Part shown: positions 25,470 through 56,283 of the stretch, in pieces
Layout: every line of letters begins with the position of its first letter
Position numbering within the stretch: the first letter of the stretch is position 1
From: Acidobacteriota bacterium
GTDB taxonomy: Bacteria; Acidobacteriota; Blastocatellia; Chloracidobacteriales; JADJPF01
Reading direction: 5' to 3'
NCBI GenBank assembly: GCA_016213785.1
Contig: JACQZQ010000128.1
Span: 1-64,000 of the forward strand
Length of the DNA: 64,000 nucleotides
The notes under the pieces: generated by a model
Seen by the model: the letters and a program-made list of their open reading frames with translations, nothing else
What the model was told of the DNA's origin: nothing
Databases searched by the model: none
Program-made: the position numbers and the translations under genes

Positions 25470-25844
25470 ATGATCGAAACAACAAAGCAGAATAGAAGAA
25501 AAGAATTACGCCATAAAAAAGAATTGCCTTTAAGAATTCAAGGCGACGATTCTTTAGGCAAATTTTTTGTAGAAATAACCCTTACAAATAATATTAGCCT
25601 CTCTGGTGCTTGCATATCACTTAACCATGAATTAAAAATCGGCCAACAATTACAAATCTTTACTTGTGGAAACTTAATACCAAATCAAACTAGTGGAAAA
25701 GTCTGTTGGCTACGTCGCCAAAGAGATTCTTGGTTAGTAGGGTTACATTTTGAACGTTCTAATAAATTTTGGAAAAATGTTGGGGATATTTTTAATCAAC
25801 TCCTGTCGAACCAAAACCACCTACACCCCTTCTACTACTGCTAA
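25470..25844 (+). CDS. PilZ-domain c-di-GMP-binding protein
   Basis: A 124-residue single PilZ domain. The two signature c-di-GMP motifs are present: the arginine switch (R9-R10-x3-R14 in NRRKELR) and N-x-S-x-x-G (N41, S43, G46 in NISLSGA), followed by VCWLRRQ and WLVGLHF strands. No output domain is attached, so it probably works by protein-protein contact. The reading frame runs past FERSNKFW into about 20 residues that overlap the convergent dUTPase gene by 53 bp. No GGDEF or EAL enzyme lies in the window, but a c-di-GMP riboswitch is present at 55960-56060. Confidence 0.88.
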   Translation: MIETTKQNRRKELRHKKELPLRIQGDDSLGKFFVEITLTNNISLSGACISLNHELKIGQQLQIFTCGNLIPNQTSGKVCWLRRQRDSWLVGLHFERSNKFWKNVGDIFNQLLSNQNHLHPFYYC

Positions 25845-49369: not shown

Positions 49370-50140
49370 ATGGCTATTTTAATTGCAGAAGATAACGTTG
49401 CCCAACGTCATTATTTAAGAGAATTGCTTGAAAGAGAATTTTCTTCACACGGCCCAATTATTGAAGCTGGTGATGGGGAAACTACTGTTACATTGGCACT
49501 TAAACATCACCCAGCTTTATGTATTTTAGATATTCAAATGCCAGGACTTTCTGGAGTAAAAGCCGCTCGCTCTATTTGGCGAAGTTTTCCAGCAGCACGA
49601 ATTATTTTTTGGACACAATTTCCTCATGAAATTTATATAAATGAGATTCGTAAAATAGTTAAATCCGTTCAACCTCCTCCTGCTTATGGGTTTATCCATA
49701 AAAATAACCCTGATACTCGCTTTTTACGGTTTATTGCTGCTGTTTTAGAAGATGGGGCAGATATGATTGATCCAGCTTTTAAGGATTCATTCAAACAGCC
49801 CTTACTTACAGAGTTTGAGGCTGAAGCGCTTTACTACTTAGCTCTAGGGCTTTCTAATTGGGCAGTTGCACGTAAATGTAGCCTTTCACAACGTGGTGTA
49901 GAGAGTCGTTTAGCTACACTTTATGAAAAGCTTTTTGTAACAATTTCTGAAGGTACACCAAACGAAGCTTATGATAAATTTGCTTATAACATCCGCACAA
50001 GAGCCTTTTTTGAAGCCTTAAGAAGGGGATTAATTAATAGCGATGAGTTGGAAAAAGCCTCAAAAGACTTAGAAGCTTGGATTGAACGCGACCGCAAGCG
50101 TTTTGCCGAAGAGCAAAAACATTTAAGTACTAAGCCATAA
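49370..50140 (+). CDS. response regulator with LuxR-like HTH
   Basis: 256 residues. The receiver domain has AEDN, phosphoacceptor Asp in LDIQMPGLSG and a Lys in FIHKNNP. A C-terminal helix-turn-helix follows (EALYYLALGLSNWAVARKCSLS, then GVESRLATLYEKL), divergent from NarL but of the same build. A Lys/Glu-rich tail ends the protein. The next gene, 30 nt downstream, encodes a HisKA_3 histidine kinase, and the two form an evident NarL-type two-component pair. Confidence 0.9.
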   Translation: MAILIAEDNVAQRHYLRELLEREFSSHGPIIEAGDGETTVTLALKHHPALCILDIQMPGLSGVKAARSIWRSFPAARIIFWTQFPHEIYINEIRKIVKSVQPPPAYGFIHKNNPDTRFLRFIAAVLEDGADMIDPAFKDSFKQPLLTEFEAEALYYLALGLSNWAVARKCSLSQRGVESRLATLYEKLFVTISEGTPNEAYDKFAYNIRTRAFFEALRRGLINSDELEKASKDLEAWIERDRKRFAEEQKHLSTKP

Positions 50141-50170
50141 ATCTTAAGCAGTTTTGATCTTGTGGTTTAT

Positions 50171-53100
50171 ATGATAAAAAATTTTAACCTATTATTTTTC
50201 TTAACTATCCTTCTTTTCTTATTATTTATTTTTAGCAATTTTGTTTATGGACAAGAATTTTATCCATCACCATCGTTAAATTTGCATAAGTGGGGGTCGG
50301 TTACTCTTTTTCACGGCCTTCCATCTAACCATGTTCGTGCAATTGCACAAGATAATGATGGAACGCTTTGGTTTGGAACTGATAGCGGTTTGGCTAAAAA
50401 TGATGGTCGTCGTACTCAAAAAGTACTAGCTAGCTTACCTAGTGAAAGAGTTTCTGTATTAAAACTAGAATTTAGTGGAGAACTCTGGATTGGAACAGAT
50501 GCAGGAGCAACAAGGCTAGTTAATAATGAGTTTCTGCCTATTAATGAGACTGTAGGCTATAGTATTAGCTCAATAATCAATCCTAGGCCAGGAGAATTAA
50601 TTCTTAGTAGCTTACAAGGAGTAATTTTTTTCTACACCCTAGCAGACCATAAAATTATTTCTTTTGAAACCTTTGGCCCAAATGATAGCGCTCTTTTAAC
50701 CACTTTTTCTAACACTGCTATTCCCCTACCAATAACTAGAGTGATCTCAAACGGTGATGCTCTTTTGCTTGCAACACGTGGTAGAGGACTGCTTGAAATA
50801 AAAAATAAACAGGTAAAAGAAATATACTTAAGACCTCGTTCATTTTTTGTTGAAGCAGTGGCTAAAGATAAGACAGGAAATATACTAATTGGCGCACAAA
50901 CTTCTAAAGAAGATAGTGGAGTTTTCCAAAGCACTAATCTTAACCAGGTACAAAAAATAGGTAGTCCAACGGGAAATATCACTTCCATTTGTGTTTCCCC
51001 TAAAGGAGATTTTTGGGTTAGTTCAAGTGAACGAGGGGCTTTTCATTATAAAGATGGTCTAGAAATTGAGCGTTTTACCTTTGAAAACAGCGGGGGAGGG
51101 CTACAATCTAATCAGGTTTATACAATTTTTATTGATCAAGAAGAAGTAATATGGTTTGGAACAGATCGTGGAGTTTGCCGCTATGATCCAAATAGTCCAC
51201 ATGCAGAAAAAATTTCTGATCAAGCAGAAAATAATTTTATTCGTGTATTTTTTCAGTCTACAACTAATCAACTTTGGGCTGGTTCAAATCGAGGACTTTT
51301 TACTAGAGAAACAAAAGCTATAGGATGGCAACAAATTAGTGAAATTGCTAATAGTTCAATTTATTCAATTTATGAAACCAATAATCAATTAATAATAGGC
51401 ACATCTGGCGGGCTTTATGCTAGCTCGCTTGATAAACAAGAAATCTATAAAGATTTTATGCGAATAGATAAAGACCCTGCTGATACAAGCTCAAAAGACA
51501 TAATTAGGGCAATTTGTTTTTTTAAGGAAAAATTCTATTTAGCTAGTCAAGGAAGAGGTCTAGAAATATTGGAAAATGGTCAAAGAAAACCTGTTTGGTC
51601 AGTAGAAAAAATAGATTCTAGCTTAAAAGATATAATCTCTTTATATGTTGATGATAAACGAATGTGGATAGGAACTACTAAAGGTGGAGTTTGGTACTAT
51701 GATGGTGAAAATCTAAAATCGGATAAGTCTTTTGAAATACTAAAAAATAGTCCTATTCGCGCTATTTTAGGTAGTCATAAAGATTTACTTTGGTTAGGTA
51801 CAGATAAGGGGCTTTACCAGTATAAAAATAATGAGCTATCTTTAATTCTCAAGGACATAGAGGTTTGGTCACTAGTTGCTAGTGGAAATAATAGTATTTG
51901 GTGTGCTACAGATGGTAAAGGTATATTTAAGATAAACTTAAATGATTGGGTAGGAATAACTCTTAGTCGTTTAGGAAATGAACATGGATTGCCTTCAGAT
52001 AAAGTTTTTACATTATTTTCTAAAAACCCCTCTGAGGAAGAAAGCTTATGGATTGGAACTAACCGAGGCATTGCTGAATATAGAGCAGGAAAAAAACCCG
52101 CTATTTTAAGATTTACTCGGATTTTAGGAAGTCAAATTTATCAGCTTACAGATCTAGAACGAGGTCTTGACCTAGCTTACCCGCAAAACAGCCTTGTAAT
52201 AGATGTTACAGCCCTTAGTAGCCGTACATTCCCAGAACAGTTCCAATATTTATTTTTATTATTTGATGATAAAAACAAAATAATTAAGCAGCGTTTAGCA
52301 AAAGATACCCAGTTTCTAACAGAAAATTTACGTCCTGGAATCTATCGTATTGAGGTGCGAGCCTATACTGGTTCTTTAAGCGTCTCTAAGCCTATTATTT
52401 TATTTTTTACAGTTGCAAGTGCACCTTTTCCTTGGACAACTCTAGCTTTATCAATACTTCTAGCTTTATCACTTTTTGCGCTTTGGTGGGGCTATCACCA
52501 AAATGCAAAATTATTTGGGACTAATAAAGCTTTGGCTACAGCTAATGAGCAATTAGCTGAAACTCGCTTGCAGCTTGCAAGTGAAACAGAAAATGAGCGT
52601 AAGCGAATTGCTAGAGATCTTCATGACCAGACTCTTTCTGACCTACGACAATTAATAATGATGGCCGATCAATTACCTGCTGAGTCAAATGGTGATAAAA
52701 GATTGCAGTCAAATACATTTCGTAGAGAAATAGAGTCTATTTCTACAGAAATTCGTCGAATTTGTGAAGACCTAAGCCCTTCAGTATTAACCAATGTAGG
52801 TTTAACAGCAGCCCTAGAATGGTCATTAACTGAAGCTATAGCACATTTACCTAAAGAAGAAAAATTTGATTATGAATTTATTTGTGATGATGAGCTAGAG
52901 GAAAAAATAAACTTTGACTCAGCAATTCAAATTCAAATTTATAGAATTGTTCAAGAAGCAATTAGTAATATTTGTAAACATGCTAAGGCTAAAAAAGTAT
53001 TCTTAAATGTTGATATTTCTGAAGATAATATATTTACTGTTTTAATATCTGATGATGGCTGTGGTTTTACTGTAGGAAAAAAAACTGGGCGTGGATTAAG

Positions 53101-53227
53101 TAATATAAGATCTCGTGCTAGTTTGATTGAAGCGGAAGTTTTTTGGCAAACAAACCCTTTAGGCGGAACACTTTTTAAGCTTCAAAAACATAATTTAGAA
53201 TCAAATAACTCTGAAACCCATAACTAA
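50171..53227 (+). CDS. two-component-propeller histidine kinase (HisKA_3)
   Basis: 1018 residues from ATG 50171 (a GTG lies 9 nt upstream; no strong Shine-Dalgarno sequence for either). A signal or anchor helix (about 3-24) leads to two seven-bladed-type propellers built from Reg_prop repeats with LWFGTDSGL, IWFGTDRGVC, MWIGTTKGGVW and LWIGTNRGIA. A Y_Y_Y-type domain follows (about 655-750), then a transmembrane helix (about 757-778), a coiled linker, HisKA_3 with the phospho-His in ARDLHDQTLSDLR, and HATPase with SNICKHAKAKK and DDGCGF. The sensor half is periplasmic. Related proteins sense carbohydrates in Bacteroidetes hybrid systems; the ligand here is unknown. Its partner regulator is just upstream. 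Confidence 0.93.
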   Translation: MIKNFNLLFFLTILLFLLFIFSNFVYGQEFYPSPSLNLHKWGSVTLFHGLPSNHVRAIAQDNDGTLWFGTDSGLAKNDGRRTQKVLASLPSERVSVLKLEFSGELWIGTDAGATRLVNNEFLPINETVGYSISSIINPRPGELILSSLQGVIFFYTLADHKIISFETFGPNDSALLTTFSNTAIPLPITRVISNGDALLLATRGRGLLEIKNKQVKEIYLRPRSFFVEAVAKDKTGNILIGAQTSKEDSGVFQSTNLNQVQKIGSPTGNITSICVSPKGDFWVSSSERGAFHYKDGLEIERFTFENSGGGLQSNQVYTIFIDQEEVIWFGTDRGVCRYDPNSPHAEKISDQAENNFIRVFFQSTTNQLWAGSNRGLFTRETKAIGWQQISEIANSSIYSIYETNNQLIIGTSGGLYASSLDKQEIYKDFMRIDKDPADTSSKDIIRAICFFKEKFYLASQGRGLEILENGQRKPVWSVEKIDSSLKDIISLYVDDKRMWIGTTKGGVWYYDGENLKSDKSFEILKNSPIRAILGSHKDLLWLGTDKGLYQYKNNELSLILKDIEVWSLVASGNNSIWCATDGKGIFKINLNDWVGITLSRLGNEHGLPSDKVFTLFSKNPSEEESLWIGTNRGIAEYRAGKKPAILRFTRILGSQIYQLTDLERGLDLAYPQNSLVIDVTALSSRTFPEQFQYLFLLFDDKNKIIKQRLAKDTQFLTENLRPGIYRIEVRAYTGSLSVSKPIILFFTVASAPFPWTTLALSILLALSLFALWWGYHQNAKLFGTNKALATANEQLAETRLQLASETENERKRIARDLHDQTLSDLRQLIMMADQLPAESNGDKRLQSNTFRREIESISTEIRRICEDLSPSVLTNVGLTAALEWSLTEAIAHLPKEEKFDYEFICDDELEEKINFDSAIQIQIYRIVQEAISNICKHAKAKKVFLNVDISEDNIFTVLISDDGCGFTVGKKTGRGLSNIRSRASLIEAEVFWQTNPLGGTLFKLQKHNLESNNSETHN

Positions 53228-53250: not shown

Positions 53251-54555
53251 TTAGAGTCGTTTAATCATTACTACTATTAATACCAATAGAACTAATACTA
53301 GGAAAATTAAAATTCCTACTAAAATTCTTTCTATCGTAGTTTTGGTTTTGTTCTCGGGTTGATTAGGAGTTTGTAAATAGTTTGAAGCAGAAGGTCTTAT
53401 CTGAGATGATTGTTTAGAACCATTAATTGACATAGATTGGGCAAAATTAGATGAAGCAGGTGAAGTTGAAGCTAAAGGTTTAGCTGATTTTAAGCCCTGA
53501 TCGTCTGGTTTGATGTTTTCAGCTTTATTATTTGGTTTAGAAACACCTTTTTGGTAGCTAGGATCTTTTGAGTCTTCTAAGTCTTCTGAGTCTTCTGAGT
53601 CTTCTAAAAAAGAAAATTGTTCACTATCTTCGTCTAAAGGTTCATTGCTTATTTTCCCATCAGGATATTTTTCTACTAGGGGTTGAAGGTCTTTAATAAA
53701 TTCTTCTGCATTTTGATAACGTCTATTTGGATCATAATCAATAGCTTTTCTTACTACTTTATCAAAGGCTTTAGGAACAAAAGGATATTTTTTTGAAAGC
53801 TCAGGAATAATTCTTTTTGTCTTAAAAAGATAAACTTCTTTTGGATCAAGGCTATTAAAAGGCAATTCACCTGTTAGCATTTCATAAACTATAATACCTA
53901 AGGAGTAAATATCTGCTGCTGGCCCAATAGAGTCTTCCATTAATTGTTCTGGTGCCATATATTGAGGTGTTCCAAATACTTCTCCAATAACAGTCAACCC
54001 AGACTCATTAAAACCTATATCAGACTCAAGTAGTTTAACAACTCCAAAATCAACTAATTTTATTGTAAGTTGATCTTCAGATTTATTTATTAAAATATTG
54101 GCTGGTTTTATATCTCTATGTAGGATGCTATGTTTATGAGCCATTTCTAGGGCAGAGGCAAGAGGTTTGACAATTTCTAGACAATGTTTTGGTGTAAGAG
54201 GGAGAATTTTTTCTAAGTAGTCATCTAGAGGTTCACCTAAAACATATTCCATTACAATAAAAAGTAAGTTATCTGGCGTTGCACCAAACTCATAGACTTT
54301 AACAATGTTTGGATGTGATAGCATCCACCCTACTTTAGCCTCTCGTTCAAATCGTTTTAGAAAAGTTGGATTAGTTGTTAAATTTTGGGAAAGTATTTTA
54401 ATAGCGACAGTTTCATTAGTATTTAGGTCTTTAGCTTGAAAAACTGCACCCATACCACCAGCAGCTATTTTTTTTTCTAGTTGGTAGTTATTGTTTAAGA
54501 CTTTGCCTATTAAGCTATTAAATAAAGCATCTTCGCTATTTGCGACTTTATCCAT
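53251..54555 (-). CDS. tail-anchored Ser/Thr protein kinase
   Basis: 434 residues. The kinase domain (about 22-290) has all key motifs: IAAGGMGAVFQA, VAIKIL, HRDIKPAN, DFGVVKL and GTPQYMAPEQ. An acidic Ser/Asp/Glu repeat (about 307-330) and a Ser/Asn/Lys-rich linker lead to a single C-terminal transmembrane helix (about 408-430, ILVGILIFLVLVLL) with only KRL after it. It is therefore a tail-anchored cytosolic kinase with no extracytoplasmic sensor, unlike PknB-type kinases. The gene converges with the propeller kinase gene. Confidence 0.93.
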   Translation of the reverse strand: MDKVANSEDALFNSLIGKVLNNNYQLEKKIAAGGMGAVFQAKDLNTNETVAIKILSQNLTTNPTFLKRFEREAKVGWMLSHPNIVKVYEFGATPDNLLFIVMEYVLGEPLDDYLEKILPLTPKHCLEIVKPLASALEMAHKHSILHRDIKPANILINKSEDQLTIKLVDFGVVKLLESDIGFNESGLTVIGEVFGTPQYMAPEQLMEDSIGPAADIYSLGIIVYEMLTGELPFNSLDPKEVYLFKTKRIIPELSKKYPFVPKAFDKVVRKAIDYDPNRRYQNAEEFIKDLQPLVEKYPDGKISNEPLDEDSEQFSFLEDSEDSEDLEDSKDPSYQKGVSKPNNKAENIKPDDQGLKSAKPLASTSPASSNFAQSMSINGSKQSSQIRPSASNYLQTPNQPENKTKTTIERILVGILIFLVLVLLVLIVVMIKRL

Positions 54556-54871
54556 GAGTAAAAATTATGTTAATAGAAATTTCAGATTTTTGATTTTAGA
54601 TTAAGTGAATCTTAAAATTAAAGGTTTATTGTGAAAAATAATAGTTATTGCAAACACATATATTAATTATTCTTAAAAATTATCTTGATAAGTATGAAAC
54701 AAGACAAAAATTGTCTAAAGTTTAAGAACCTAAAAAGGTTTGATGTATTAGGGCTAAAGAAATTACTTAATTAATTACCTTTAAAACGAAAAACACGCGC
54801 TGTGAGGCAAGCGCGTGTTTTTAAAGAGCGAGCCTCGCTTGTGCTCGGCGCGAGACACGCGGGGCATACCG
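54556..54871. other. intergenic region with terminator and GC-rich patch
   Basis: No gene. The stretch 54556-54788 is ordinary AT-rich sequence and includes the promoter side of the kinase gene. It is followed by a terminator (54789-54822) and an abruptly GC-rich patch to 54866 (GAGCGAGCCTCGC and CTCGGCGCGAG), quite unlike the surroundings. Confidence 0.6.
54789..54822 (-). terminator. strong bidirectional terminator
   Basis: A 13-bp perfect stem (AAAAACACGCGCT and AGCGCGTGTTTTT) with an 8-nt loop. On the minus strand it ends in TTTTTCGTTTT. It lies 50 nt past the stop of the riboswitch-controlled gene. Confidence 0.9.
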
Positions 54872-55819
54872 TTATTGAGCAGGCTTAGCCAAAGTTGCAT
54901 TAGCCTCATTACGAATAGTTTCTATAGATTGGGCTAAGTAGGATTTTATATTTGGAAAAGCTTTGCTCAGCATTTCAATATCATAATCTATTGCCTTACG
55001 TAGTGGGATATACTTTTCTTCTTCTGTCATCACACAGGCTTTAGCATAGGTATCAACAATTTGTTCACTTAATGAAGCAAATTTTGTTGTATTAATAAAA
55101 CTATTTATAGGACTACGTTCTCCATTGCGATAGAGTTGGACTTGGGCTTTAGCTAATAAAAAGTAGGTATAAGGTTGATTAGGGTTAAGTTCTGTAGCAG
55201 AAGTTAAAGCCCTAGCGGAATCTAAAGAACAACCATTTAATAAAGCAAAAATCCCTAATGATTGATAAACATCAGCTAAAAGATTATTTTTATATGGGTT
55301 CCAATCTGTGTCTAAATAACCTGAAGGCATTTTATTTGCTTTTAATAAATCAAGTGCTTGGCGTGCAAACCCTTCACCCTCTATAAAATACTTAGTGTCC
55401 CCTCTTAAAGCTTGATTACTAGCAATAGTAGCTAGTTGAGTTAAAACTAGCATATGTTCAGGATAAGTTGTTAAGGCTTTTCTACCAAGCACAAAAGCTT
55501 GGTCATAGTCATTAAGACGAATAGCAGCAGTAACTAAATTTTGATAAAGAGGAAAGCACATTTGGCTATTTGGGGCTTTTTCAATAAAAGCTAGTCCTTG
55601 TTCAATCATTGTTTTTGAACAACTTTGAGCAACAATTTGTTGATATTCTTGGTATTCATCTTTTGTTACTGCTACTGGTAGGGTGGGATCAACAGCGGCA
55701 ATTGTTTGATTGGTACAATTTTTCTTATCTTCGTTTTGGGCTAATGTATTGGTTGGTAAAGAAAGAAAAGATAGTGCTAGCAATAAAATTATAAAATATG
55801 TTTTAAGGTTCTTTTGCAT
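54872..55819 (-). CDS. secreted TPR-like protein under c-di-GMP riboswitch
   Basis: 315 residues from ATG 55819, which is preceded by the strong site GGGGAGG; a longer frame starting at 55864 is rejected. A signal peptide ends near TLAQ. The mature protein is helical, with TPR-like repeats (NDYDQAFVLGRKALTTYP, LFALLNGCSLDSARALTSATELNPNQPYTYFLLAKAQVQ). It is a soluble periplasmic or surface protein. No catalytic motif is visible. The 5' leader carries a GEMM-I type c-di-GMP aptamer about 140 nt upstream of the start, so expression should follow c-di-GMP level (inference). It ends at the terminator at 54789-54822. Confidence 0.85.
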   Translation of the reverse strand: MQKNLKTYFIILLLALSFLSLPTNTLAQNEDKKNCTNQTIAAVDPTLPVAVTKDEYQEYQQIVAQSCSKTMIEQGLAFIEKAPNSQMCFPLYQNLVTAAIRLNDYDQAFVLGRKALTTYPEHMLVLTQLATIASNQALRGDTKYFIEGEGFARQALDLLKANKMPSGYLDTDWNPYKNNLLADVYQSLGIFALLNGCSLDSARALTSATELNPNQPYTYFLLAKAQVQLYRNGERSPINSFINTTKFASLSEQIVDTYAKACVMTEEEKYIPLRKAIDYDIEMLSKAFPNIKSYLAQSIETIRNEANATLAKPAQ

Positions 55820-55959
55820 AAGACCTCCCCGAATATCAAAAACAAACGATTTTGTGTAAAACAATCAAATGTTTGATACAAATTTGGTTAAACGTTATTT
55901 GTGGATTGGCCTATGATAAGAAAATGTGCAGATAAACTTGACAGCTTATAGCATTGGCT

Positions 55960-56060
55960 TCCACTTCGGCATTTCTCCAACCATATTCACTTACTTAAAT
56001 AAACTTAGGTTGAGAACTTTGCGCCCTGCGCTTTCACCACAGGTTGCTCTTATCGGTGGA
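55960..56060 (-). promoter_or_regulatory. c-di-GMP-I (GEMM) riboswitch aptamer
   Basis: Read on the minus strand, the segment shows the GEMM-I consensus in order. P1 5' strand TCCAC (56060-56056) comes first, then CGATAAGAGCAACC. P2 is closed by CCTGTG/CGCAGG with a GAAA in the loop, followed by the conserved GGCGCAAAG. P3 is TTCTCAACC/GGTTgGAGAA, enclosing CCTAAG at one side and TATGG at the other. The conserved ATGCCGAAG and the P1 3' strand GTGGA (55964-55960) close the fold. The pattern matches GEMM-I aptamers as remembered from Geobacter-type sequences. It lies in the leader of the TPR-like gene at 54872. The expression platform (55820-55959) shows no obvious terminator, so control may be at translation. 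Confidence 0.82.
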
Positions 56061-56283
56061 CTACCTTTTATGTAGTCAATTAAATTTTGTTATTAATTGT
56101 AAAGTAAAATTTTTGTTAATTTTGTTAACTAAGCTACTTGGCATTCTAAATATCCTATCAACAAAAAGCAAGTTTTTTTTTCATTAAAATTAAAGATTTT
56201 TCCTGCTATCCCAACTATTTACTTCTGTTTATAATAAACTGTCCTTACAATGCGAATTACTACCTATTACTTAAAAATATCTT
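56061..56283. other. divergent promoter region of riboswitch gene and hyuB
   Basis: AT-rich spacer between the riboswitch (minus) and hyuB (plus). No gene, repeat or confident promoter was found. Together with the leader at 55820-55959 it makes up the 464-bp gap between the two coding regions. Confidence 0.4.

Follow-up and report, generated by a model that had tools for sequence, protein, structure and literature searches.

In a 64,000-nucleotide stretch of an Acidobacteriota genome, referred to here as the window, the leader of the gene at 54872-55819 (minus strand) had been predicted from the letters alone to contain a class I c-di-GMP riboswitch. The locus raises the question of which second messenger this RNA would recognise, and with what consequence for the gene that follows it. 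The reading we favour, and consider on the whole fairly probable, is that the exported TPR protein is encoded by a transcript of its own whose 5' leader holds a GEMM-Ib (A20) riboswitch, and that this riboswitch would respond to cGAMP, made by a GacA-like Hypr GGDEF enzyme, with an OFF output.

A GEMM-I aptamer before the gene of an exported TPR protein

When the whole window was scanned against all Rfam families, a single match reached the gathering level, namely RF01051 (class I c-di-GMP/GEMM-I), which lies on the minus strand at 55965-56058, covers the complete model (positions 1-87) and scores 42.7 bits against a gathering value of 35 (E 5.3e-5). This interval is the aptamer core with P2 and P3; with the full P1, in which UCCACCG at 56060-56054 pairs with CCG.AA.GUGGA, whose 3' end is at 55960, the element occupies exactly 55960-56060 on the minus strand. 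The leader therefore carries a genuine GEMM-I aptamer, as the original prediction had it: the four motifs named there are present in order, and the covariance-model search proposed as a check returned this significant, full-length match. The claim that P1 and P3 could form together likewise stands. In an alignment of four orthologous leaders, from this genome (G000) and the relatives G001, G002 and G003, P1, P2 and P3 comprise 30 pairs with 94.9% of cells paired, a figure that drops to 35-43% in a control in which the partner is slid by 1 to 3 columns, while five pairs (nine cells) have changed on both sides. P1 is complementary in all four leaders, yet almost invariant and hence without covariation; P3 in the leader is weak and A-U-rich. 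Just 5' of the aptamer, sequence and alignment reveal a small hairpin, GACUAC/GUAGUC (56059-56077, minus strand), in G000 and G001 only.

The regulated gene encodes P0001, a protein of 315 aa that was correctly anticipated to be exported and helical: a hydrophobic segment of signal-peptide type can be read at its N-terminus, both TPR_17 and TPR_14 of Pfam score above their cut-offs, and its AlphaFold model (pLDDT 81.8) is all helical. Its matches in the PDB, among them MamA and PilF, are generic TPR proteins and name no function. Downstream of the gene, the hairpin AAAAACACGCGC...GCGCGTGTTTTT (54789-54825, minus strand), read from the sequence though not listed by the consensus scan, is GC-rich, is followed by a T run and separates P0001 from a kinase at 53251-54555. 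Because this likely terminator follows the gene, P0001 is probably the only gene controlled. Elsewhere in the window (49370-53227) a response regulator (49370-50140) precedes a 1021-aa two-component sensor (50162-53227) with a beta-propeller-like N-terminal part.

Candidate expression platform of the leader

Outside the aptamer the leaders of G000 and G001 have diverged, with conservation mainly in three islands, GUGGAAGCCAAUGC, AGGCCAAUCCACAAA and GGAGGUCUUAUG. The elements conserved in this way, all on the minus strand, are GUGGAAGCC (55956-55964), which is the P1 3' strand with an extension and a candidate anti-anti-SD; GGCCAAUCCAC (55901-55911), a candidate anti-SD; and the Shine-Dalgarno sequence GGGGAGGU (55823-55830), which stands 3 nt before the ATG and is conserved as GGAGGTCTTATG in G001. 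The middle island can pair either with the first (-12.6 kcal/mol, in G000 and G001 alike) or with the Shine-Dalgarno sequence (-10.1 and -15.7 kcal/mol), and the observed value was reached by 8 and 4 of 300 dinucleotide shuffles, a modest support that comes from two close relatives. A search for intrinsic terminators detected none on the minus strand of the leader, and the platform looks translational. In minimum-energy folds of the full leader the two states are not clearly separated, and the anti-SD of G000 and G001 is not common to G002 and G003.

Since GUGGAAGCC, GGCCAAUCCAC and the Shine-Dalgarno sequence are conserved islands able to pair alternately, we infer, with moderate to weak confidence, a translational OFF switch. 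Without ligand the GUGGAAGCC:GGCCAAUCCAC helix would keep the Shine-Dalgarno sequence accessible. Because GUGGA is also the 3' strand of P1, a P1 stabilised by bound ligand would release the anti-SD: with GUGGA engaged there, the downstream GGCCAAUCCAC would be free to cover the Shine-Dalgarno sequence and lower translation. The converse arrangement, in which the P1 5' strand (UCCACCGA) of the unbound RNA masks the Shine-Dalgarno sequence and ligand-driven formation of P1 exposes it, would make an ON switch; it is doubtful, if tenable. The free minimum-energy folds of both G000 and G001 indeed pair the initial part of the Shine-Dalgarno sequence with the P1 5' strand, the duplex being worth -9.8 and -9.5 kcal/mol, and in a Geobacter GEMM-Ib riboswitch ligand binding induces expression (PMC6456294), but the local anti-SD, itself a conserved island, pairs with the Shine-Dalgarno sequence equally well or better at the energies given above, which speaks against the ON arrangement.

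Position 20 and the choice of messenger

The ligand-specificity nucleotide of these aptamers, position 20 in Vc2, corresponds in the RF01051 alignment to model position 11, the last nucleotide of J1/2 before P2, where the consensus is G and the leader has A (56048, minus strand), the cGAMP type. The G at Vc2 position 20 that marks GEMM-Ia is accordingly absent, and the A20 of GEMM-Ib is present. J1/2 as a whole reads G-A-U-A-A-G-A and matches the published identities of the cGAMP aptamer, in which G8, A9, A11, A12 and A14 of J1/2, together with C75, are ligand contacts. Likewise, the C at 55969 (minus strand) is equivalent in the alignment to C92 of Vc2 and C75 of pilM, and would be expected to form the Watson-Crick partner of a ligand G (role from PMC9262584). 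In a Geobacter GEMM-Ib riboswitch an A20G exchange turns selectivity from cGAMP to c-di-GMP (PMC6456294), and in Desulfobacca G or A at this position predicted a preference for c-di-GMP or c-AMP-GMP, respectively, with which in-line probing agreed (PMC9481103). Among the 70 GEMM-I matches examined across the class, position 20 is G in 57, A in 12 and C in one. The A at 56048, as in cGAMP riboswitches, therefore suggests cGAMP over c-di-GMP, and the c-di-GMP originally proposed as ligand is probably wrong.

The only other GEMM-I match in this genome (6.4 Mb, 132 contigs), at C93:24790-24878 with 63.8 bits, also has A20 and lies upstream of a gene identified by sequence as that of PilM; Geobacter metallireducens has a cGAMP riboswitch at pilM as well (PMC9262584). 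A20 copies at pilM occur in G000, G001, G002, G017 and G266 within a shared string, TGCTCAGAGCAAA (TGCTCAAAGCAAA in G001), and a further copy, in G157, has A20 in the same string. A permissive search upstream of pilM in G003-G006 found no GEMM-I. Across several families of the phylum, A20-type riboswitches with TGCTCAGAGCAAA (L001 1501-1589 and five further loci) stand mostly before pilM, while the pilM leaders of one family, f4, mostly have G20. The same family has tandem G20 elements, two or three in a row, before genes for large exported proteins at five loci, and in the genus g13 and its relatives (at seven loci and others) a G20 element lies some 650-740 nt upstream of an ispE-like gene, where a shorter ORF may intervene and be the real target.

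As to synthesis, five intact GGDEF domains were read in the genome, two of which have Ser in place of Asp at the Hypr position. The GAF-GGDEF protein L007 (C52:49415-49888) combines this Ser with GGDEF (NDNNGHLCGS and RYGGDEF). In the PDB it matches 6d9m best (Gmet_1914, a Geobacter Hypr cGAMP synthase), at 7e-42, the next being at 2e-28. The signature of Hypr enzymes combines Ser348 with GGDE[F/Y], and the natural ones are reported to pair Ser exclusively with GGDEF, as in L007 (PMC6456294). On these residues L007 would be a Hypr enzyme, which like GacA and its kin (GSU1658, Gmet_1914) couples an N-terminal sensor region to the GGDEF domain, although its cross-dimer residue is Pro, unlike the Tyr304 of Geobacter. 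Within the class sample, 11 further genomes encode close relatives of the L007 domain (53-92% identity). Cabther_A1065 bears a name that we take to come from Chloracidobacterium; it is a Hypr enzyme producing more c-di-GMP (PMC6456294). In a further GGDEF protein, whose N-terminal region is FHA-like (L005 1501-1983; G000:C91:153148-153630), the Hypr Ser occurs with GGEEF, and such domains also occur in G001, G002, G003, G076, G096 and G097; the Ser/GGEEF pair has been reported as absent in nature and predicted to be unable to bind substrate (PMC6456294).

The preferred ligand is thus likely to be 3',3'-cGAMP, putatively synthesised by the GacA-like Hypr GGDEF of the same genome, and the messenger for the leader riboswitch is more likely cGAMP than c-di-GMP. 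Because canonical cyclases (L003, L004 and L006) and PilZ proteins are also encoded, c-di-GMP is probably present in the cell too. The PilZ protein noted near 25470 is real (domain at 25491-25757, 44.9 bits), but as a pointer to the ligand it was rejected, since PilZ does not discriminate between the dinucleotides. It is unlikely that the riboswitch senses c-di-GMP with A20 tolerated, or answers to both dinucleotides. Such sensing would fit the membership in RF01051, the PilZ proteins and canonical GGDEFs, the G20 of the G003 orthologue and the fairly good binding of c-di-GMP that A20 variants may retain: binding by a Desulfobacca A20 aptamer was reduced only slightly (PMC9481103), and the position-20 nucleotide is described as a selectivity factor, not a hard filter (PMC9262584). 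Against it stand A20 as the published discriminator, its presence in both GEMM-I elements of the genome where 57 of the 70 class matches have G20, and the GacA-like enzyme.

Conservation, and comparison with known systems

A search among 98 relatives found GEMM-I together with a P0001 homologue in G000, G001, G002 and G003; across these four related genomes the aptamer has been kept together with its target gene. The homologues are 80% identical in G001, about 35% in G002, where there are two tandem paralogues, and about 38% in G003, and the named matches are the Blastocatellia MAGs nzgw73, SKYG65 and new MAG-250. Since a permissive search detected no GEMM-I at nine loci of more distant homologues or of a G003 paralogue, the link looks restricted to one family. 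A decayed aptamer devoid of regulatory function is very improbable, for despite a score below that of the pilM copy and the weak P3, the core, P1 and gene linkage are kept, with compensatory changes, across orthologues at 35% protein identity.

In G003 (SKYG65) the orthologous riboswitch (G003:C15:198352-198443) has G20 (AAGGGC), and this genome nevertheless encodes a GacA-like enzyme, such that the enzyme does not cleanly account for A20 versus G20. On the strength of this one G20 genome we tentatively raise the possibility that the ligand has been exchanged at a single orthologous site controlling one gene family, all within one bacterial family, with cGAMP (A20) as the messenger in three genomes and c-di-GMP (G20) in SKYG65; this, if true, would amount to a second-messenger circuit rewired in nature through a single nucleotide.

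If the cGAMP reading is right, cGAMP riboswitch control, described for Geobacter and Desulfobacca, reaches the Acidobacteriota, with a candidate synthase alongside, pilM as a conserved target and, as a new one, an exported protein whose gene would join a pathway known mainly from Geobacter. Because Rfam labels A20 members c-di-GMP-I, annotation pipelines would assign them the wrong messenger.

Compared, from published positions, with the Geobacter GEMM-Ib (c-AMP-GMP-I) riboswitches of pilM, Gmet_0970 and pgcA, the leader aptamer shares the three stems, the G-A-x-A-A-x-A pattern of J1/2, A20 and the C at the ligand-pairing site, and its genome likewise has a sister copy before pilM and a gene for a GacA-like synthase. 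It differs in the apparently translational platform, in which no intrinsic terminator was seen, in the exported TPR target and in the acidobacterial host; P2 opens with a G-C pair, which is what c-di-GMP aptamers have, whereas the crystallised cGAMP aptamer has C15-G40 there. The c-di-GMP-I aptamers Vc2 and Cd1 (RF01051) resemble it in overall architecture, and Vc2 has also been described as a translational OFF switch, but at position 20 they have G where the leader aptamer has A.
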